From: a virus
IMG/VR virus record: IMGVR_UViG_3300030061_003397
Coordinates: 1-47,503 of that record
Direction: 5' to 3' (one strand)
Length of the DNA: 47,503 bases
This document shows, in pieces, positions 7,320-17,741 of this stretch. How positions within the stretch are numbered: position 1 is the first letter of the stretch; each line of letters begins with the position of its first letter. The notes below the pieces were generated by a model that worked only from the letters and a program-made list of their open reading frames with translations, was not told the origin of the DNA and did not search any database. A program made the translations under genes and the position numbers.

Positions 7320-7505
7320 ATGTCGTTTGAAGAAAACAAAAAGTCTTATATGGACTCTTTGTATGGAATTTCCACCTTGTTGAAAAGATGGCATACAGAG
7401 ATACATAAAAAAGATGTAACAAAGAATTACTTAATTAATCGCCTTGATAATTGGATTAGGAAACTCCAAGAATTAAGGCATGAAATAATGATGAGGAAAA
7501 GTTGA
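7320..7505 (+). CDS. Small helical protein, unknown
   Basis: A 61-residue basic, helical protein with Trp at residues 24 and 45 and a C-terminal RKLQELRHEIMMRKS helix. It starts 4 bases after the preceding stop and its TGA overlaps the ATG of the protease gene (TGATG), so it is within one tightly coupled translational unit. Position next to gp21 matches small prohead core proteins, but no family is recognised. Confidence 0.5.
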   Translation: MSFEENKKSYMDSLYGISTLLKRWHTEIHKKDVTKNYLINRLDNWIRKLQELRHEIMMRKS

Positions 7506-8116
7506 TGAAAGACTTAATAGTAGATTACATACCATTCGAAATTTCACCTGAACAGATAAACGAATCCATTTCACAAAATGGTGGTAAGTTAATAGTTCAT
7601 GGTGTACTACAAAGGGCTAACGCAAAAAACCAAAATGGTCGTGTGTATCCTCGTGAAATTTTAGAAAGAGAAAGTCAAAAGTACACAAAAGAATTTGTTG
7701 TACAAAAAAGGGCTTTAGGTGAGTTAGACCATCCTGATAGTTCTGTAGTAAATTTACAGAATGTATCCCACAATGTTACGGAAATGAATTGGGAAGGTAA
7801 TAACTTGGTTGGAACCGTTGAAGTTTTGGGAACACCAAGTGGTAATATATTGAAAGAATTATTTAAGGCTGGAATCAAACTTGGTATTAGTTCTCGTGGT
7901 ATGGGTTCCGTTGAACCTATGCAAGAAGGTGATGGACAACAAGTAGGACAAGACTTTGAATTAATTGCATTTGATTTTGTATCAAATCCTTCAACACACG
8001 GAGCTTTCTTATACCCTATGAAAGAAAGTGTTGGAAATGAAATACCAACAGGTAGAACTTGTGGTGAATATTGTAAAGTTGAAAGTATCATAAACGACAT
8101 AATCAGAGAGGGCTAA
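7505..8116 (+). CDS. 21: Prohead core maturation protease (gp21-like)
   Basis: This protease degrades the scaffold and trims capsid and internal proteins in the prohead before DNA packaging. The 203-residue protein carries RVYPREIL (46-53), GELDHPD with His76 (72-78), GISSRGMGS with candidate nucleophile Ser129/130 (127-135), and FDFVSNPSTHGAFLYPM near 155-171, as in the T4 gp21/S78-like family. Near its N-terminus is QINE20-S21, a possible self-cleavage site of the I-x-E type. I chose ATG 7505, overlapping the upstream stop, over the in-frame TTG at 7502. It is surrounded by proteins bearing possible gp21 cleavage sites. Confidence 0.93.
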   Translation: MKDLIVDYIPFEISPEQINESISQNGGKLIVHGVLQRANAKNQNGRVYPREILERESQKYTKEFVVQKRALGELDHPDSSVVNLQNVSHNVTEMNWEGNNLVGTVEVLGTPSGNILKELFKAGIKLGISSRGMGSVEPMQEGDGQQVGQDFELIAFDFVSNPSTHGAFLYPMKESVGNEIPTGRTCGEYCKVESIINDIIREG

Positions 8117-8520
8117 TGAAAAAATTAAAAGATTTAATAAAGGAAAGTAAGTATCTCGAAAGAGAATTTGGTGATGCATTACCCACATTAGATAGTGTGA
8201 TGAAACAACACCAAGATTCTAAAGAACCTATCAAAGAAATTTCAATACCTCAGTTTAAAAAATCAGATGATGTATCCTATTATTATAGAGATTGGGGAAA
8301 AATATTTGACAAGTTAGAGAGATTTGATGATTACGGCCCAAGAGAATCTGATATGTATGATTGGAATGATAGAAGTCTTTATGATAATGTAACGAAAGAA
8401 TTTCACTCACATATGGAAAAAATAGGAAAGAAACTCAATTCTGCAGTAAAGGACATGGAGAATTCTTATAAAGTATGGGATAAAATTTTAAAGAAATATC
8501 GTAGTAAAGACAGAACTTAA
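8116..8520 (+). CDS. Putative capsid-targeted internal protein with ~41-residue leader
   Basis: A 134-residue protein directly after gp21 (TAATG overlap). The N-terminus MKKLKDLIKE10-S11 has the form of a capsid-targeting sequence ending in an I-x-E site. Residues 18-33 (FGDALPTLDSVMKQHQ) match FGEPLPTLEDTMKAHQ in the protein at 12316, and both leaders end in a second site, here PIKE41-I42. The C-terminal domain differs: it is acidic/aromatic and helical (KSDDVSYYYRDWGKIFDKLE), with no known motif. I infer targeting into the prohead and removal of the leader by gp21, leaving a 93-residue mature protein. Confidence 0.55.
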   Translation: MKKLKDLIKESKYLEREFGDALPTLDSVMKQHQDSKEPIKEISIPQFKKSDDVSYYYRDWGKIFDKLERFDDYGPRESDMYDWNDRSLYDNVTKEFHSHMEKIGKKLNSAVKDMENSYKVWDKILKKYRSKDRT

Positions 8521-8792
8521 TGATTAGTTTAAAGTCATTATTAAGAAATGTCCGTGAGGCAAAACTAACTCCACCAAAAAAAGGAGTAGAGACACCATTA
8601 GATGCAAAAATACAGATTCAAGGGTATGGTGTGATGACGAGAAAACAACTACAGAAAAGTATTGAAAGGATTACATATGAGGTCTACAAAGACTCTAAAA
8701 AAGGTAATCATAAAAACATTTTAAGTTCTCTTTATAAGAGAAGTGTATTAGAAAGATTTTTGGAAACGGAAATCCAACATAGTGGAGAATAA
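8520..8792 (+). CDS. Small putative capsid-targeted protein
   Basis: A 90-residue basic protein. The ATG overlaps the stop of the previous gene (TAATG). The N-terminus MISLKSLLRNVRE13-A14 fits the shared L-K-x-L-L leader and ends in V-R-E followed by Ala, the preferred residue after T4 gp21 cuts. The remainder (PLDAKIQIQGYGVMTRKQLQ and on) is a short alpha/beta segment with a basic helix. No function is recognised. The leader and location suggest a head-interior protein. Confidence 0.5.
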   Translation: MISLKSLLRNVREAKLTPPKKGVETPLDAKIQIQGYGVMTRKQLQKSIERITYEVYKDSKKGNHKNILSSLYKRSVLERFLETEIQHSGE

Positions 8793-8794
8793 AA

Positions 8795-9067
8795 ATGGGA
8801 ATGAATCCTAAACAACAAATGGATATGGAAAATAAGTGGAGAACTTTTCGTCTTGAAGAAGAAATAAATGAAGAAGAAAAAGACGCATTTGACGCACCAA
8901 TTCCATCACAGATAAAAAGATTTATGAATAAATTCATAGATGCTTTACAAAAAGGTAATTTGAACAGAAAAAGAAAATTAGCTATTCTTGGTCAAGTGGT
9001 ATCTAATCTTGGTATAGAACCAAATGAGTTAATGAAGTATGTTCGTTTAGTTAAAAAAGGATTATAA
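8795..9067 (+). CDS. Small conserved phage protein with I-N-E site
   Basis: A 90-residue protein. Residues 20-26 (LEEEINE) form an I-N-E site identical to those that punctuate the modular protein at 9887. After it comes a conserved-looking helical unit (DAPIPSQIKRFMNKFIDALQ, then NRKRKLAILGQVVSNLGIEP) which I think recurs in marine T4-like phages as a hypothetical protein. Start at ATG 8795 follows GGAGAATAAA. Function unknown; head cargo is possible. Confidence 0.5.
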   Translation: MGMNPKQQMDMENKWRTFRLEEEINEEEKDAFDAPIPSQIKRFMNKFIDALQKGNLNRKRKLAILGQVVSNLGIEPNELMKYVRLVKKGL

Positions 9068-9068
9068 G

Positions 9069-9815
9069 TTGCCAGCTAAATCCCAACAACAACAGAAGTT
9101 TATGGGATTGGTACATGCCTACAAGAAAGGTGAAGTACCAGCTAGTAAGGTTAGTAAGGCCGTAAAAGACGCAGCAAAGTCAATGAGTAAGAAGTCCGTT
9201 AAGAAATACGCTAAAACAGACCACGATGACTTACCTAAAAGGGTAAAGGAAAGTAAAACCTCTAACATGATGAAAGCTATTCGTAAACACGGAACTGCAG
9301 GACCTTGGAGTATTATTGTAAGTAAAAATAATAAAGTAGTAACACGAGTATCTGTAAAGATGTTGAAAGAGATTCCAGCATACTTAATTTCTTTGAGAAA
9401 AAAGTATCCAAATCATAAGTTTGGTATAGAAGCCAAAAGTGGTAGAATAGCCTATAGAGAAGAAAAAAAAGGATGTGTATGTGAGGCTTGTCAAAAAGGG
9501 TACAAGACTCATCCTAAAAGAAAAACCAAAATTATGTTTGGTAAGAGATATAGAAATTGTATTAAAGCAGAAGCTATATCCGATAAGATGTCAGTTATCA
9601 TGACCAAGTTAGCCAAATCATTAGGTGTAAAATCAGTAGTGGATATGGCAACTGGTAGTGGAAGTCTAAGTTACTTCCTCGATGATAAGATGGAAGCAAA
9701 AAAATTAGCTATGATGTTAAAGAAAACATTTAAAAGAGTAAGAATTATACCTTTGGATAAATCAAAAGGTGATACAGCCAACTTTGTAGTTGCAGCTGAT
9801 ATGATTGGATTATAA
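9069..9815 (+). CDS. DUF3008-like modular protein
   Basis: A 248-residue basic protein starting at TTG 9069 (AAGGA about 8 bases upstream). The N-terminal block (PAKSQQQQKFMGLVHAYKKG, then KVSKAVKDAAKSMSKKSVKK) is the DUF3008-type module of T4-like phages. A boundary RVKE61-S62 resembles a gp21 site. Further modules follow: an alpha/beta unit GTAGPWSIIVSKNNKVV (75-91), a Cys-containing unit CVCEAC with KTKIMFGKRYRNCIKAE, then a small unit around MATGSGSLSYFLDDKMEAKK that looks like an alpha/beta ferredoxin-type fold. The last unit contains the words ATGSGS but no full methyltransferase motif set, so I do not call it one. It is a mosaic of small phage modules. Confidence 0.55.
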   Translation: MPAKSQQQQKFMGLVHAYKKGEVPASKVSKAVKDAAKSMSKKSVKKYAKTDHDDLPKRVKESKTSNMMKAIRKHGTAGPWSIIVSKNNKVVTRVSVKMLKEIPAYLISLRKKYPNHKFGIEAKSGRIAYREEKKGCVCEACQKGYKTHPKRKTKIMFGKRYRNCIKAEAISDKMSVIMTKLAKSLGVKSVVDMATGSGSLSYFLDDKMEAKKLAMMLKKTFKRVRIIPLDKSKGDTANFVVAADMIGL

Positions 9816-9823
9816 TGAGTACC

Positions 9824-9868
9824 CACCACACATGACCATATAGTGGTGAAGAACACCCAGTTTGGGTG
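9824..9868 (+). promoter_or_regulatory. Two tandem hairpins before the modular polyprotein gene
   Basis: CACCAC (9824-9829) pairs with GTGGTG (9843-9848), and CACCCA (9854-9859) pairs with TGGGTG (9863-9868) with a 3-base loop. They sit between the stop at 9815 and the preferred ATG at 9887. No T-tract follows, so they are not intrinsic terminators; an RNA processing or translational control role is possible. The frame of the downstream gene is open through both stems from about 9836. Confidence 0.35.
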
Positions 9869-9886
9869 AAACATGAGGAAGAACCT

Positions 9887-12316
9887 ATGGACGATTATAA
9901 TAAAAGAATGAAGGAGTGGATAACCAACATGGTTAGAGAAGAACTCCGTGAGGATGAGGAATGGTGGAATAAAAAGTCAGCTGCCCAACAGCAGGACTAC
10001 ATCAGACAACATCCACAATCTCAAAAGGCCATAGATGCTAAAAAAGAAAAAGAGGATGATAAATCAAAGGGAAAAGTATCAGAAAAACCAGGAGGAGCTT
10101 CCCATATAAAATCAACTGGTGGTAATAATGTATTACTTGCAAAAGGTACAAGAGAACATATAGCTAGACACAACAAACCAGGTGAAGGTTCTGTTTTCAG
10201 CGATAAAATTAGTATAGATGATGTTCAAGGTGCTATAGGTGAAATACCTGAAGAATTTTATGAAAAGGGTGGTGGAGTACATACCACAACAGTTCCAAAT
10301 GCTGGATTTAATTTAGTACAAAAGGCTTCTGATATTGAAAAGAACCATCCAAACGCGAAAAAAATTAAAGTTAAGAAACAGATTGGATATGATAGAGAAA
10401 AAAATAAACCAATTATGAAAGAAGTTGATGCTTATATTATTGATGCTGACAAAGAAGAATTTTCAACCGACCAATTAAATGTAATAGTTAGACCATCCAA
10501 TTCAGATTTTATGGATGATGAGTTAAAAAGTGATTCTGATGTTCAACAAGATTTAAAAGATGGGAAATCACATTCTGTACTTACTTCATTTCCTGGTGAC
10601 CCGGATGTTCCACCAGCTCAAAATTGGGAAGAAAGTGGTCATGCGATAATTATACCAAATGGTGGTAAAGATGCTGATAAATCAAATTGGGTTACAGAAT
10701 CCGTTGAGGAAACAAAGAAACGAGACTATAAAGCCGAATACAAGAAATTTCAATCTTCTACAAAGGCCAAAAAGTATAGAGCAGAATTAAATAAGTACAA
10801 TCGTAAGAAAGGTACTTATGGAAATGGTGATGGTAAAGATGCATCACACAAAGGGGGAAAGATAGTGGGATTCGAAGCACAATCTAAAAATAGAGGTAGA
10901 GCCGAAAAGAGTAGGTTAAAGAAAGAATCCTTTAAAGAAAATAAGGATAAGGTTAAAAAGTATCTCATTAGTAAAGGTGATACCGAAAAGGATGCTACAG
11001 AAAAACTTAAATACTATGATTACATCAAAAAAACCTACAAGGGTATAACCCCAGCAAGAATGGCAACAATAATGGGTCATCTAGCAAAGATGGAATCCGT
11101 AAATGAACGCACAAAGATGAGACCACAAGTCAAAAAACTTTTAAAACAAAAGGGATACAATCCTATTTTTGGTGCGATAGATAATTCCAAACGACAATTA
11201 AAACAGATGAGATACTCACGAGGTGAAATACAAGATACATTGATTAGTATGTTTGGTGATGAAGACCCAAAAATACTACAAAAAATTAAAGAATCTATAA
11301 ATGAGAAGAAAGGAGATTTCCTTGATTCTCTGTTTCCAAAATCAAAAGTCGATAAGGCAGTTAAGATAGCTCAATCAATGGGTGGTGATATGACTGGAGC
11401 AGTCAAGAAGATTGAGAAGTATTTCAAGGGAATATCATTACATTCCAAAGTTAAAGATGCACTTCAACAAGCTAATGAATCCATAAATGAAGAAATGTAT
11501 TTCGACCCTAAAAGTGAATTTAAGAAATATATGGATAAAGTTTTTAAACAATCCAAAATAAAAGTGATAAAATTTAATCGTATGAAACAAAGTTTTCATA
11601 ATGGTGCTTGGGGTGGATTCTATACAGTTAAGTCAAGTAATAAAGTAGACATAGGTGGTAAACCAGTCAAAAGAGGTTCAGCTGTTCTACCAGTATACAT
11701 TAGTAGAGTAGGTGAAATTGAGTTGGGAGTTAAAGCCGGTGGTTTTCATATAGGTAAAGTTGGTAGTTCACAAGTGGTAAAGAACCTAAAAGATTTTAAG
11801 AAAGGTGATTTAGATGAATCCGTAAATGAAGATGTATACGCTATCGTGGATAAATTCAACCAAAAGAAACAAGATTATGACCAAGTCTATTTCAAGGACA
11901 ATAACTTAAATAAAGTTAAGAAACATATGAAGAAGATGGGTAAGAAATATGGAAAAATGAATCTTATAAAAGTTAAAACCAATGGTAAGATGAATTTGGT
12001 AGAATCTGTTTCTAAGTCACAAGCTCAAGAAATAATGAGACAATTGGGTGGTAGAAAATTTGAAATGTTGATGGGTGTGAAATCTAAGGGTGTTGGTAAG
12101 GATGGATTGATTCTACACATTGGAAAAAACCCAAAAAGGATTTCTCATATAATTATTGATATCGATAGAGGAAAAGATTTATACAACTTGACATTTGGAA
12201 AGGTATACAAGTATCAATGGAAAGTTACTAAGAAACTCAAAGGTATATATGTAGACCAATTACATGATATGATTGAAAAGTATACTGGAAACCTTACTAC
12301 ATTTAGGAGTAGATAA
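9887..12316 (+). CDS. Modular polyprotein-like protein with repeated ES[VI]NE junctions
   Basis: A ~809-residue protein from ATG 9887, preceded by GAGGAAG at 5 bases; an in-frame GTG at 9866 would add 7 residues. Counting from 9866, ES[VI]NE occurs at residues 410-414, 476-480, 538-542 and 651-655, with variants ESVEE at 278-282 and ESVSK at 713-717. Each junction ends in V-N-E or I-N-E, the L/I-x-E form cut by T4-type prohead protease. Between them lie unrelated small modules: a long N-terminal acidic domain with an EWWNKKSAAQQQDYI opening, a degenerate HNH-like unit (DGKDASHKGGKIV), a unit with PKSKVDKAVKIAQSMGG, a beta unit (NGAWGGFYTVKSSNKVDIGG), and a C-terminal unit with IMRQLGGRKFEMLMG. 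I infer a head-cargo polyprotein. The enzymatic roles are unknown. Confidence 0.6.
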   Translation: MDDYNKRMKEWITNMVREELREDEEWWNKKSAAQQQDYIRQHPQSQKAIDAKKEKEDDKSKGKVSEKPGGASHIKSTGGNNVLLAKGTREHIARHNKPGEGSVFSDKISIDDVQGAIGEIPEEFYEKGGGVHTTTVPNAGFNLVQKASDIEKNHPNAKKIKVKKQIGYDREKNKPIMKEVDAYIIDADKEEFSTDQLNVIVRPSNSDFMDDELKSDSDVQQDLKDGKSHSVLTSFPGDPDVPPAQNWEESGHAIIIPNGGKDADKSNWVTESVEETKKRDYKAEYKKFQSSTKAKKYRAELNKYNRKKGTYGNGDGKDASHKGGKIVGFEAQSKNRGRAEKSRLKKESFKENKDKVKKYLISKGDTEKDATEKLKYYDYIKKTYKGITPARMATIMGHLAKMESVNERTKMRPQVKKLLKQKGYNPIFGAIDNSKRQLKQMRYSRGEIQDTLISMFGDEDPKILQKIKESINEKKGDFLDSLFPKSKVDKAVKIAQSMGGDMTGAVKKIEKYFKGISLHSKVKDALQQANESINEEMYFDPKSEFKKYMDKVFKQSKIKVIKFNRMKQSFHNGAWGGFYTVKSSNKVDIGGKPVKRGSAVLPVYISRVGEIELGVKAGGFHIGKVGSSQVVKNLKDFKKGDLDESVNEDVYAIVDKFNQKKQDYDQVYFKDNNLNKVKKHMKKMGKKYGKMNLIKVKTNGKMNLVESVSKSQAQEIMRQLGGRKFEMLMGVKSKGVGKDGLILHIGKNPKRISHIIIDIDRGKDLYNLTFGKVYKYQWKVTKKLKGIYVDQLHDMIEKYTGNLTTFRSR

Positions 12317-12837
12317 TGATTAAATTAAAAAAATTAATGACAGAATCCGTTTGGAACAGAAAGTTTGGTGAACCATTACCAACACTTGAAGATACAATGA
12401 AAGCCCATCAAAAGAAAACTATTACAGAAGGAACTCGTTGGTTGGTTGGTATTGAACAACCTAATGGTAAGATTACATCCACTTATGGTCATTACGATGG
12501 TTATCCTGAATGGGCAGGAAAACATTTAAAAAAGTATTATAACAATCCTGCAAAAGCAAAAGAATTATTAAAACTCGGTAAATCAGGAATTTCCACAATC
12601 GGCCCAAAAATAAAAGGGAATAAAGACCATTCCTTTGAAAAACCTAACAAGGGAGTTACCGTATTCTATGGTAGAGATAGAGGTGAAAAAGGTAGAATGA
12701 CGAGTAATTGGGGTAATAGAGACAAGGTAAAATTTGATAGTGGTGAGGAATACGCTTACATTTATAACCTCAAAGAAAAACAATGGTATTATAAATCACG
12801 ATACTCTAATCCACAGGATTGGACAGAGTTAAAATAA
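12316..12837 (+). CDS. Putative capsid-targeted protein, leader shared with the protein at 8116
   Basis: A 173-residue protein starting at the ATG overlapping the upstream stop. MIKLKKLMTE10-S11 is the short leader; FGEPLPTLEDTMKAHQ (17-32) matches the leader of the protein at 8116; TITE38-G39 is a second L/I-x-E site. The mature part would begin GTRWLVGIEQPNGKITSTYG, a module with HYDGYPEWAGKHLKKYY that I associate with small phage/bacterial proteins starting MGTRS. So a known free-standing module has had a 38-residue targeting leader placed in front of it. The C-terminal half contains aromatic beta strands (EYAYIYNLKEKQWYYK). Biochemical role unknown. Confidence 0.55.
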   Translation: MIKLKKLMTESVWNRKFGEPLPTLEDTMKAHQKKTITEGTRWLVGIEQPNGKITSTYGHYDGYPEWAGKHLKKYYNNPAKAKELLKLGKSGISTIGPKIKGNKDHSFEKPNKGVTVFYGRDRGEKGRMTSNWGNRDKVKFDSGEEYAYIYNLKEKQWYYKSRYSNPQDWTELK

Positions 12838-12840
12838 TAT

Positions 12841-13533
12841 ATGTTAAAACTTAAAGATTTACTGAACGAGAAAAAAGACCACGAGGGTTCCATGGCTAAA
12901 TCTCAACTTGAGAGAAGTCAAAAATACGCTATGATGATTTATAAAATCATTCAAAATGTTGATAAGGATGGTGATGGTGAGGTTGAATTTCCAGCTTGGG
13001 TACAATCAAAGTTAACTAAGTCTATGGATTATTTACAATCTGTATATAATTATTTGGATGGTAAGGATGGATTAGATGATAAGTTCCAAGATGAAGCCTC
13101 AACAACAGCTTATGTACCAGGATATCAAACACCTCTTGCTTTTAAAAAATCTACAAAATCTGCCATTGATTGGGACGATGAAGATGATGATGATGAAATA
13201 TTAGGTGGATTAAAAGATGTTAGGGGTAAAAGAGTAAAAAGATTTGGTGAGGTAAATACTTTACCATATAGTTCAAAAGAAGCAAAAATACATATAGATA
13301 ATGATATTAGAAAAATGTCAAAACATTTAGGTAAGGCTTCACAACAAGTTATAAAGATTATGATGGATGGTGTTAAGGGTGGTAAGTATGATGCTATGGA
13401 TATCACACGAGGTATTGAAACAGGCCAGTTAAACAGAACACACGAGGGAGAAAGACCCTTTATGAAAATGTTATGGAGAAAGGTTCGTGATGGGTTTAGA
13501 AGGTATTCAAAGGACAAAAAATTAAGAAAGTAG
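12841..13533 (+). CDS. Putative internal head protein with leader and GYxTPxAF motif
   Basis: A 230-residue protein. MLKLKDLLNE10-K11 is the shared leader. Residues 15-34 (EGSMAKSQLERSQKYAMMIY) plus PAWVQSKLTKSMDYLQSVYN (51-70) form a helical module I find familiar from T4-like phages. Between them is DKDGDGEVE (41-49), which fits the first nine positions of an EF-hand loop, but position 12 is Ala rather than Glu, so calcium binding is doubtful. QDE85-A86 and GYQTPLAF (94-101) repeat the motif of the protein at 6842. An Asp/Glu run (IDWDDEDDDDE) and a basic C-terminal helix follow. Probably processed by gp21 and located in the head; inferred. Confidence 0.55.
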   Translation: MLKLKDLLNEKKDHEGSMAKSQLERSQKYAMMIYKIIQNVDKDGDGEVEFPAWVQSKLTKSMDYLQSVYNYLDGKDGLDDKFQDEASTTAYVPGYQTPLAFKKSTKSAIDWDDEDDDDEILGGLKDVRGKRVKRFGEVNTLPYSSKEAKIHIDNDIRKMSKHLGKASQQVIKIMMDGVKGGKYDAMDITRGIETGQLNRTHEGERPFMKMLWRKVRDGFRRYSKDKKLRK

Positions 13534-14831: not shown

Positions 14832-16076
14832 ATGGATGACCTTTTAAAAGACGCTATAGCTGATGCTAAAGCTGTCCGTGAAACGGCACTTGCTAACGCT
14901 AAATTAGCTCTCGAAGAAGCATTCACTCCACGCATTCAATCTATGCTATCTCAGAAGATACAATCTGAAATTGAAGATGAAGATGAAGTTGCTGATGAAG
15001 TGGCTGACGAAGTCGAAGATGCAGAAGAAGGTGAACATGAAGATGCACCTGAAGCACCTGAGGCACCTGAAGTTGCTGTAGAACCTGAAGAAGGTGAAGA
15101 AGTAGCTGATATCGCTGATGAAATCGAAGATGAAGACGAAATGCACCATGAAGTTGAAGACGAAGACGAAGGATACGATGAATCCAAAGTAATCGAAATC
15201 GATGGTGTTAAGTACGCTCCAGTAGTATCTGAAGAGGAAGAAGACGAAGATGAAGGAATGCATGAAGGTGAACACGGAGAAGAAGACGAGGACGAAGGAT
15301 ATTCTGAAGACCTTGACTTAGAAGCTGTGTTAGCTGAGTTGGAAGGTGAAACTGTAACCGAAGAAGAAGACGAAGATGAAATCGCAGAAGGCGACGATAA
15401 AGAAGACGAAGATGAAATAAGTGAAAACGATGTCTCATCTGAAATCGGTGCAGCTGACAACAAGTTAAAACCTGAAGCTGGTGATTCAACTAAGATTGGA
15501 CAAGGTCCTGAAGGTGAAGGTTCTGATAAACCTGCCGGTAAGGAAGATGAAAATTCAGAAATAGTAGACGATTTGAAAGAAGATATCGAAGTTTCTGAAG
15601 ACATTGACCTTGAAGAAGTGTTAAAAGCTCTCACAGAAGAAGAAGAAGACCCTAAAGACGAGGGTGATGATGAAGAAGATGTGAAAGAAGAAGTAAACAC
15701 TCTTAAGTCCGACTTAGAAGAACATAGAAATGTAGTGAAATATCTGCGTGGAAAGTTGAATGAAGTTAATCTTCTCAACGCTAAACTTTTGTTTACTAAT
15801 AAATTATTCCGTAATTTCGGTTTAAATAATGAACAGAAGTTAAAAGTTGTGGAGACTTTCGACAGAGCAACAAACCTAAGAGAAGTCAAGTTGGTATTTT
15901 CAACTTTGGCCGAATCTTTTGGTAACAAAGTGGCTAGCAAGCCAAGTAAACCTATTAAAGAATCAAAGGGTTCAAGTTCAAAACCTGTAGCTTCAACTAA
16001 ACCAAAAACTGAAGAAGTAATTTCTGAAGGATTTGATTTAAAAGAACGCTTTCAGAAACTTGCCAAGATTCTTTAA
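14832..16076 (+). CDS. 22: Prohead core scaffolding protein (gp22-like)
   Basis: The scaffold forms the core around which the prohead shell assembles and is digested by gp21. The 414-residue protein is extremely acidic: about residues 45-290 are mostly Glu/Asp with Ala, Val and Gly. The N-terminal helix (MDDLLKDAIADAKAVRETAL) and the C-terminal region (NNEQKLKVVETFDRATNLRE then VKLVFSTLAESFG) are typical of gp22 in marine T4-like phages. Position immediately before the capsid gene agrees. The middle is longer and more acidic than T4 gp22 (269 residues). AAAGGAG lies 6-7 bases before the ATG. Confidence 0.88.
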   Translation: MDDLLKDAIADAKAVRETALANAKLALEEAFTPRIQSMLSQKIQSEIEDEDEVADEVADEVEDAEEGEHEDAPEAPEAPEVAVEPEEGEEVADIADEIEDEDEMHHEVEDEDEGYDESKVIEIDGVKYAPVVSEEEEDEDEGMHEGEHGEEDEDEGYSEDLDLEAVLAELEGETVTEEEDEDEIAEGDDKEDEDEISENDVSSEIGAADNKLKPEAGDSTKIGQGPEGEGSDKPAGKEDENSEIVDDLKEDIEVSEDIDLEEVLKALTEEEEDPKDEGDDEEDVKEEVNTLKSDLEEHRNVVKYLRGKLNEVNLLNAKLLFTNKLFRNFGLNNEQKLKVVETFDRATNLREVKLVFSTLAESFGNKVASKPSKPIKESKGSSSKPVASTKPKTEEVISEGFDLKERFQKLAKIL

Positions 16077-16109: not shown

Positions 16110-17741
16110 ATGAGTTCATTTGGAAAAATTGAAAAGCTCATGGATTCTTACGATCCTGTTCGTTCTCGTTTGGCAGAAACCCAAAAATTAGTTCAAAAGT
16201 GGGAACCCACTGGACTTCTTGAAGGTATTGAAGACAATAACAAGCAACACGGTATGGCCGTACTTCTTGAAAATCAAGCCCGTCAGTTAATTGATGAATC
16301 ATCAAAAACTGGTGGTAGTGGTTCAGAAGAATGGAGTGGTGTTGCATTACCATTGGTTCGTAGAATCTTTGGTGAGTTAGCGGCTCAAGACTTTGTTAGT
16401 GTTCAACCTATGAACCTACCAAGTGGTCTAATTTTCTATCTTGACTTCAAGTATGGAACTGCACAAACAGCGAACCATAATAAAGGTGAACATATACATG
16501 GTAACACCTCAGCTTCAAGTGATGCAAGCGGTGGTTTATATGGTGCTGGTAAATTCGGATACTCTATCAATGATAATGTATCTAGCACTATTGTAAACTC
16601 AAACATCACAGAAGCATCTGCTTCTTGGAAAGAAGTAGAATTCGAACCAGACCTATCTGCATCTATTGCTACTACAGCAGCAGACCAGATAATCAAACTG
16701 ACTGTCACAAGGTCTAATTTCATAGCAGCTGCACCTAATGCAGATTTGAACGGAATTAGAGCTTTCGAAGTTAGTGGTTCTGATATCTCAGCTCACTATC
16801 CTGCTTACTCTTATTTCGACGCAGACAATGTGTATTTCTATGTGAAATCTACAGAAGGTCGTATGGACGCAGCTGGAATTGGTGTGAAATATCACAAGCA
16901 ACCTACTGAAGCTGTCAGAGGTGATTTCGAACAAAGTACATTTACAACACCTGCACCAAATAGTGCTGATGATGTGGATATTCCTGAAATCGATATCGCA
17001 CTTAGACAGATTTCTATTGTTGCGAAAACTCGTAAACTTAAAGCAGTATGGACTCCTGAGTTAGCTCAAGACCTTAACGCTTACCATTCTGTTGACGCAG
17101 AAGCTGAATTGACTTCTATGTTAAGTGAGTACATTTCAATGGAAATTGATTTGGAAATACTTGACCTATTAAAGTCTGAAGCTAACGCTAAGACTGAGTA
17201 CTGGTCAGCAAAGGTTGGATATGAGTTTGATTCAGTAACTTCCTTATTCTCTGAAGTTTCTGGTAATTCAAATGCTTACACAAAAGGAACTTGGTTCCAA
17301 ACACTTGGAAACAAACTACAAGCTGTAAGTAACGCGATACATCAGAAGACTCTAAGAGGTGGTGCTAATTTCATTGTTGTTTCACCTGAAACTGCAACTG
17401 TAATTGAATCCATACCTGGATACGCTGCTGATACTGATGGTAACGCAACTAACACATCATACGCAATGGGTGTACAGAAAGTTGGAGCATTGAATAACAG
17501 ATATACGGTTTATAAGAACCCTTATATGTTAGAAAATGATATCCTACTTGGTTTCAGAGGAAGTAATTTCTTAGAAACTGGAGCAGTATACGCACCGTAT
17601 GTTCCGTTAATCATGACTCCTCTTGTTTACGATCCTGTTAATTTCACTCCTCGTAAGGGTGTAATGACAAGATACGCGAAGAAGATGGTAAGACCTGAAT
17701 TCTACGGAAAAGTTGTTGTCGCAGACATCAACATGGTTTAA
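16110..17741 (+). CDS. 23: Major capsid protein (gp23-like)
   Basis: A 543-residue HK97-fold shell protein. The N-terminal propeptide should be removed by gp21; QLIDE63-S64 fits the L/I-x-E rule and lies where T4 gp23 is cut (after Glu65). Downstream, VALPLVRRIFGELAAQDFVS and VQPMNLPSGLIFYLDFKYG are the T4-type capsid signature near residues 77-115. The C-terminal part has FIVVSPETATVIESIPGY and the conserved end YAPYVPLIMTPLVYDPVNF. TTGGAG precedes the ATG. Ordered and terminated as expected for a highly expressed gene: scaffold, capsid, then a strong terminator. No separate gp24 vertex gene is seen here. Confidence 0.96.
   Translation: MSSFGKIEKLMDSYDPVRSRLAETQKLVQKWEPTGLLEGIEDNNKQHGMAVLLENQARQLIDESSKTGGSGSEEWSGVALPLVRRIFGELAAQDFVSVQPMNLPSGLIFYLDFKYGTAQTANHNKGEHIHGNTSASSDASGGLYGAGKFGYSINDNVSSTIVNSNITEASASWKEVEFEPDLSASIATTAADQIIKLTVTRSNFIAAAPNADLNGIRAFEVSGSDISAHYPAYSYFDADNVYFYVKSTEGRMDAAGIGVKYHKQPTEAVRGDFEQSTFTTPAPNSADDVDIPEIDIALRQISIVAKTRKLKAVWTPELAQDLNAYHSVDAEAELTSMLSEYISMEIDLEILDLLKSEANAKTEYWSAKVGYEFDSVTSLFSEVSGNSNAYTKGTWFQTLGNKLQAVSNAIHQKTLRGGANFIVVSPETATVIESIPGYAADTDGNATNTSYAMGVQKVGALNNRYTVYKNPYMLENDILLGFRGSNFLETGAVYAPYVPLIMTPLVYDPVNFTPRKGVMTRYAKKMVRPEFYGKVVVADINMV

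Follow-up and report, generated by a model that had tools for sequence, protein, structure and literature searches.

The stretch of viral DNA analysed here (the window, 47,503 nucleotides) carries a long polyprotein ORF on its forward strand (9887 to 12316). This encodes 809 amino acids from the ATG at 9887 and 816 from a GTG at 9866; residue numbers for the polyprotein count from 9866. Direct reading places a Shine-Dalgarno-like GAGGAAG and its spacer at 9874 to 9886 (+). The ATG is the likelier start because GAGGAAG precedes it, and the conserved KHEEEP codons ahead of the ATG are probably a ribosome-binding region. The ORF is also uninterrupted, at 86-89% identity, in three relatives (L005, L006 and L008), each from a separate IMG/VR metagenome record. 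The polyprotein has no Pfam match above cut-off and two PHROG matches, both to families without an assigned function. On these matches, homology to the T4 core proteins gp67 and gp68 was considered and rejected. AlphaFold modelled the full-length protein poorly (mean pLDDT 52), so that the model gives no support to any geometry of domains and linkers.

The ORF opens with a leader (MDDYNKRMKEWITNMVREELRE; 9887 to 9952, +) that ends in L-R-E and is proposed as a capsid-targeting propeptide. This leader (MDDYNKRMKEW..ELRE) is kept at the N-terminus of polyproteins that otherwise differ. It is of another type than the M.KLKDL[LI]xE leaders of neighbouring genes. Seven modules follow, all on the + strand. 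Module 1 (residues 30-282; 9953 to 10711) ends in a variant junction, ESVEE (10697 to 10711). Its residues 30-67 recur in L019 and L020 ahead of different sequence; relatives of the rest of the module were looked for and none was found. Module 2 (residues 283-414; 10712 to 11107) ends in ESVNE (11093 to 11107) and matches PHROG 6437, a free-standing family of 86 amino acids to which small genes of T7-like cyanophages and of Flavobacterium phage elemo belong. Module 3 (residues 415-480; 11108 to 11305) ends in ESINE (11291 to 11305) and has copies, 96-97% identical, in another gene of L009 and L013. Module 4 (residues 481-542; 11306 to 11491) also ends in ESINE (11477 to 11491). Module 5 (residues 543-655; 11492 to 11830), which ends in ESVNE (11816 to 11830), has homologues with other neighbours in L013, L014, L119 and L120. 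Module 6 (residues 656-713; 11831 to 12004) ends at a boundary, L-V-E/S, that overlaps an ESVSK (12002 to 12016; a slash marks a boundary here and below), and has other upstream neighbours in L012, L018 and L021.

Module 7 (residues 714-816; 12005 to 12313) spans the whole of a free-standing PHROG of 98 amino acids (PHROG 9437). It is found as a lone gene of approximately 95-120 amino acids, outside the head gene blocks, in Agrobacterium phage Milano, Pseudomonas phage Paride, Rhodobacter phage RcMotherGoose and Pasteurella phage Pm86. Its AlphaFold model has a pLDDT of 86.7. A fold search with this module (12017 to 12313) gave no significant match to a solved structure; the significant matches were limited to uncharacterised viral models. 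Several of the top matches were to the C-terminal DNA-binding domain of T4 MotA (best E 0.08, TM at most 0.53), a non-significant likeness of predicted folds that is only a weak lead. Modules 2 to 7 are small (57-132 amino acids) and basic (pI 9.5-10), and module 1 is acidic.

The original prediction described small modules separated by ESVNE or ESINE at four places and by variants at two more. The four exact motifs are indeed present (ESVNE at 11093, ESINE at 11291 and 11477, ESVNE at 11816; residues 410, 476, 538 and 651), with variants at residues 278 and 713, and the proposed cut points after residues 414, 480, 542 and 655 agree with the sequence. The variants hold only in part: ESVEE (10697) and ESVSK (12002) both exist, but the latter has no Glu at P1. 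To judge from the residues present, any cut near 12002 is likely to fall at the overlapping L-V-E/S (residues 711-713), which reads SLVE/G and SLVE/A in relatives. The similarity claimed for the junction DNA was also borne out, all six sites starting with GAATC[CT]. All four occurrences of GAATCYRTNAATGA in the 47.5-kb record are within the polyprotein ORF, and the reversed pattern is absent.

The motif is strongly enriched in related phages. In 146 related loci (1482 non-redundant ORFs, 388,232 amino acids), ES[VI]NE was counted 131 times against 1.1 expected from composition. These copies are distributed over 70 proteins, 39 of which carry at least two. Permuted controls in the same ORFs gave one EN[VI]SE, three SE[VI]NE and no NS[VI]EE or EE[VI]NS. 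Head genes are mapped in 41 of the loci; of the 88 copies there, 87 fall in the interval between the portal and major capsid protein (MCP) genes (0.77 per 1000 amino acids inside versus 0.009 outside). The counts for these loci are not independent because several fetches of one contig overlap, although the outside region is affected equally.

The head block of the window includes the portal (4085), protease (7502), a scaffold-like acidic protein (14832) and the MCP (16110), in that order. Three genes close to the polyprotein also join a leader to a cargo. The leader of the first (8795 to 9067, +) ends at residue 26 in EEINE, as had been predicted together with an I-N-E near the N-terminus of the gp21-type protease, which is likewise present. 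Sequence related to this gene is found in L099 and L014: the part downstream of its leader has another leader ahead of it in L099 gene 13153 (MKISKSRIKEMIKEELESYMKE, identified by eye) and resembles part of a fused gene in L014. The second (12316 to 12837, +) starts with a leader (MIKLKKLMTES...), and L013 has its cargo as part of a longer protein. The third (12841 to 13533, +) starts MLKLKDLLNE/KKDHEGS..., and the same cargo lies behind an internal ESISE/ in L015. DVDKDGDGEVEFPAWVQ in this last gene is EF-hand-like (Pfam EF-hand_1, E 0.011, below cut-off). Inside the head block, 42 of 361 ORFs have a leader-like N-terminus, compared with 7 of 258 outside; in 34 of those 42, Glu occupies the position expected for P1. 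In sequence form, such leaders (M.KLKDL[LI]xE in the neighbouring genes) correspond to T4-type capsid-targeting leaders, which end in L/I-x-E. Two other genes deserve mention. The DUF3008 gene of the window (9069 to 9815) is itself modular: its residues 59-248 lie behind an internal ESVKE in L013, and the gene is split by an insertion in L017. An ORF of 1043 amino acids with a secretion-signal-like start (MKQILTPILFLLGLTCAAQ) lies between the protease and capsid genes of another locus (L100:11266-14394), which is unusual in a head block.

Module maps of the relatives show modules gained, lost and moved to other genes. Shuffling had been expected to show as modules on their own, in a changed order or behind the short leader, and all three situations were encountered; the outcome that would have refuted the idea, a fixed module order with poorly conserved junctions, is the reverse of the pattern observed. 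For example, modules 3 and 4 lie in a separate gene of L013 (DNA identity 95% and 85%), and module 4 is replaced in L005 and L008 by an allele only approximately 58-60% identical, the neighbouring modules being 87-98% identical. L006 lacks module 6 and reads DLDESVN-LVESVSK. Module 7 is preceded by module 6, by module 5 or by at least three other modules, and also occurs alone behind a leader. The richest case seen is a pair of adjacent polyproteins with six and five junctions (L187:7905-9908 and 10072-11355). Leader-like stretches also occur internally in some phages (MKITKSQLREMIREEIQKLNE in L187 is an example) and suggest that the chains may have grown partly through fusion of whole leader and cargo genes. 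In Pfam and PHROG scans of the other polyproteins, only DUF3008 and families of unknown function were above cut-off.

Exchange occurs at the junctions. When the ends of alignments of at least 70% identity were recorded with the motif masked, 30.5% fell within two residues of a junction; random positions gave 3%, and no more than 5.3% in any of 300 draws. With permissive alignments the test is noisy (13% versus 4% within three residues). Approximately 70% of breakpoints are more than a few residues away from the canonical motif. Many of those listed lie at variant boundaries (for example, ESAVNE, SENMNE or LGEE), although these were not counted separately.

The polyprotein could in principle be a scaffold or core protein like T4 gp22, gp67 and gp68, cut so that it can be cleared before DNA packaging, in which case the modules would not be cargo. 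Its gene does lie within the head block, and gp21 cuts T4 core proteins into several fragments (PMC9026906). In Flavobacterium phage immuto, moreover, the scaffold gene itself contains a module in duplicate, with VNE and NLEE at its borders. On the other hand, the sites fall between modules and not throughout the protein, modules can be missing and their set differs greatly among relatives, and the window has a separate acidic scaffold-like gene at 14832. Module 7, predicted to be well folded, is a lone gene outside the head blocks of unrelated phages. We regard a disposable core as unlikely, but it is the alternative that retains most weight. The immuto duplication (L022:6967-8208) concerns a segment starting with GFEQWLDSVSAQMD; as immuto is a cultured phage, it could be tested.

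We prefer to see the polyprotein as head cargo. The gene at 7502 to 8116 (+) encodes the proposed cutter, a T4 gp21-type prohead protease (Peptidase S77). The original identification as gp21 is well supported by Pfam (PF03420, 1.5e-29), PHROG 207 (2e-53) and a structure profile (T4 gp21, 5jbl, 1.2e-25) in which the SRGLGS serine motif is aligned. Both the S77 domain and the portal-protease-scaffold-MCP block expected of a gp21-type protease are present. T4 gp21 cleaves according to the rule L/I-x-E (PMC9026906). The junction fits this rule, as had been proposed: P1 Glu and P3 Val or Ile are fixed and P2 is free. Variants of ES[VI]NE differing at one position greatly exceed expectation at P2 (84 versus 18) and P4 (91 versus 15, including in part the protease's own EQINE) and are near chance at P1 (22 versus 14), P3 (9 versus 8) and P5 (21 versus 14). 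The fixed P5 Glu is not accounted for by the gp21 rule alone. The MCP (16110 to 17741, +) has a gp23-type site, QLIDE/SS, and 33 MCPs of the clade have [IVL]-x-E there, reading Q[LI][IVL]xE/[SA] or close to it, so both Val and Ile are found at P3 in this clade. That the protease at 7502 accepts Val at P3 is an inference from these sites.

Junctions also take the place of leader processing sites. The same cargo can follow either a junction or a leader with [LIVM]-x-E at its end, as in LLNE/RMSKREAGEM and ESVKE/GVSKSQAQEIM, KLNE/DGHIDVPS and ESVNE/DGHTDVAS, or LLNE/KKDHEGSM and ESISE/LKDHEGSM, and a leader can itself finish in ESINE (MKKLSQLLESINE). A sister clade uses a second junction, EGKL[TN]E, with five copies in one 698-amino-acid protein of L099. 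The five copies lie in a DUF3008-led polyprotein (L099:11057-13150 and L176:8001-10094) with the DNA consensus GAAGGAAAACTTACAGAA. Both dialects bound the same module, at 90% identity (KLTE/DYKNN..GMRVIK/EGKLTE versus KLTE/DYKNS..GMRVVK/ESVNE), and module 2 can end in KSRLKK/EGKLNE or KSRLKK/ESVNE. Only the leading Glu and [VIL]-x-E are common to the two. No significant covariation was detected between junction dialect and the protease's own C-terminal site (Fisher p = 0.24).

These comparisons bear on whether ES[VI]NE might be no more than a flexible linker, left by recombination in a single intact virion protein that is never cut. The junction codons are conserved beyond the peptide, so that copying of the seam alone could spread the motif. 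Such copying does not explain why P1 and P3 stay fixed whereas P2 and P4 drift, why the second dialect shares just [LIV]-x-E and the leading Glu, or why junctions replace leader processing sites before the same cargo. We judge an uncut linker to be very improbable. Sequence evidence of this kind favours protease cleavage at the junctions over a simple linker and leads us to infer strongly that a gp21-type protease cleaves the polyprotein; neither virion proteomics nor mass spectrometry of these uncultured phages could be found.

The junctions are also conserved as DNA. In 110 distinct ES[VI]NE junction contexts, Ser is encoded by TCC in 52%, compared with 6% overall and 8% for ES pairs found elsewhere; GTA is the Val codon in 93% of Val junctions (42% overall). 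The bases on either side are not very informative. For the EGKL dialect, 27 of 34 Leu codons (79%) are CTT, versus 17% overall. The protease's own C-terminal EGKLNE has TTA in almost all copies, and its ESV(G)NE has mainly AGT, not TCC. Because the junctions share rare codons, mostly unlike those of the protease's own similar site, they were apparently copied as DNA, and on their nucleotide sequence they look like recombination seams. In L006, for example, the deletion of module 6 joins two seams at a three-base overlap (AAT). The recombination mechanism is inferred. A dedicated site-specific recombinase or endonuclease that targets the junctions, the protease match being secondary, is scarcely credible: GAATCCGTAAATGAA, with its rare codon, is the commonest single junction (40 of 110 contexts), but the sister clade has an unrelated DNA seam (GAAGGAAAACTTACAGAA) and the L006 deletion resembles homology-assisted or illegitimate joining.

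In T4-like phages, small injected proteins disarm host defences and are normally encoded by one gene each. A marine family of T4-related viruses appears instead to chain several small head-packed proteins with a cutting tag between them. We think it probable that the polyprotein is head cargo, cut at its junctions by the gp21-type protease and with modules swapped at the same junctions. In the scheme we infer, one N-terminal leader would carry the entire polyprotein to the prohead core, like the T4 capsid-targeting sequence. During head maturation the protease would cut after the Glu of each [VIL]-x-E (ESVNE, ESINE, L-V-E and ESVEE), freeing approximately seven small, mostly basic proteins. 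By analogy, these would remain with the DNA in the head, probably be ejected with it and act early in infection as effectors. Presence in the virion is likewise inferred, and support for packaging and ejection is limited to gene position, the leader and basic pI. Since every junction has almost the same short DNA sequence, it is at the same time a seam: complete modules come in, drop out, replace one another or change genes there, and frame, targeting and processing would be kept.

A broader reading, for which we would put the chances at about even, is that the junction is a dual-purpose cassette border, both protease site and DNA homology seam. Because the shared leader and border would supply targeting and release, any small gene could be captured as head cargo in one step, giving an expandable array of injected effectors with at least two dialects (ESVNE and EGKLTE). 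The border sequence is a search tag that could bring up many candidate injected proteins of uncultured marine phages, among them families without known function (for example, PHROG 9437 and PHROG 6437). The arrangement would also provide a natural design for loading several cargoes into phage heads, with new cargo added simply by insertion between two tags.

By protease and capsid, the nearest cultured relatives are Microcystis phage Mel-JY01 and Flavobacterium phage immuto (approximately 47-57%), and neither of these closest isolates has ES[VI]NE polyproteins. An ORF of Mel-JY01 (8401-9567) was considered as an Alt-like ADP-ribosyltransferase and rejected for want of Pfam or PDB support. Proteins with at least two junction-type motifs were found in 16 of 19 phages whose MCP is at least 60% identical to that of the window and in none of approximately 10 more distant phages; these counts are of distinct contigs, by eye, and concern the ESVNE dialect only. 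L099, one of the more distant phages, has the EGKL dialect. These are probably large myoviruses of which the window is a fragment, because L096 derives from a 216-kb contig. A flavobacterial host is only a guess, made because 6 of 22 protease matches in genome bins are in bins named Flavobacteriales or Flavobacteriaceae.

A search of a set of open-access papers for 'phage polyprotein' found none (subscription papers were outside the search). Among known systems, the T4 internal proteins IPI, IPII and IPIII and Alt resemble the present case in having a short leader ending in hydrophobic-x-E, a gp21-type protease and variable basic cargo that differs among relatives (PMC9026906, PMC12373910). 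Once injected, T4 internal proteins inhibit type IV restriction enzymes (PMC12373910), and they are basic, like modules 2 to 7 (PMC9026906); for the modules themselves, an anti-restriction role would be an analogy only. T4 internal proteins have a single cargo and a single leader per gene. Here this rule is not met: up to seven modules share one leader in multi-module ORFs with repeated internal junctions. T4 gp22, gp67 and gp68 also have several gp21 sites and are cut inside the prohead (PMC9026906), but the T4 cuts destroy and clear the core whereas the present ones would fall between shuffling modules also known free-standing. The inner-body and ejection proteins of phiKZ and SPN3US are head proteins packed with the DNA and cut after x-x-E by a gp21 relative, some at several sites, but where a single protein is cut more than once the sites are in its N-terminal propeptide, and the motifs are A-x-E or S/A-x-E; modular shuffling, as seen here, is not described in the accessible parts of the two sources (PMC10052503, PMC9026906). 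The parts are thus known ones (T4 internal proteins, a targeting leader and gp21), and what is new is their arrangement as a swappable cargo polyprotein.
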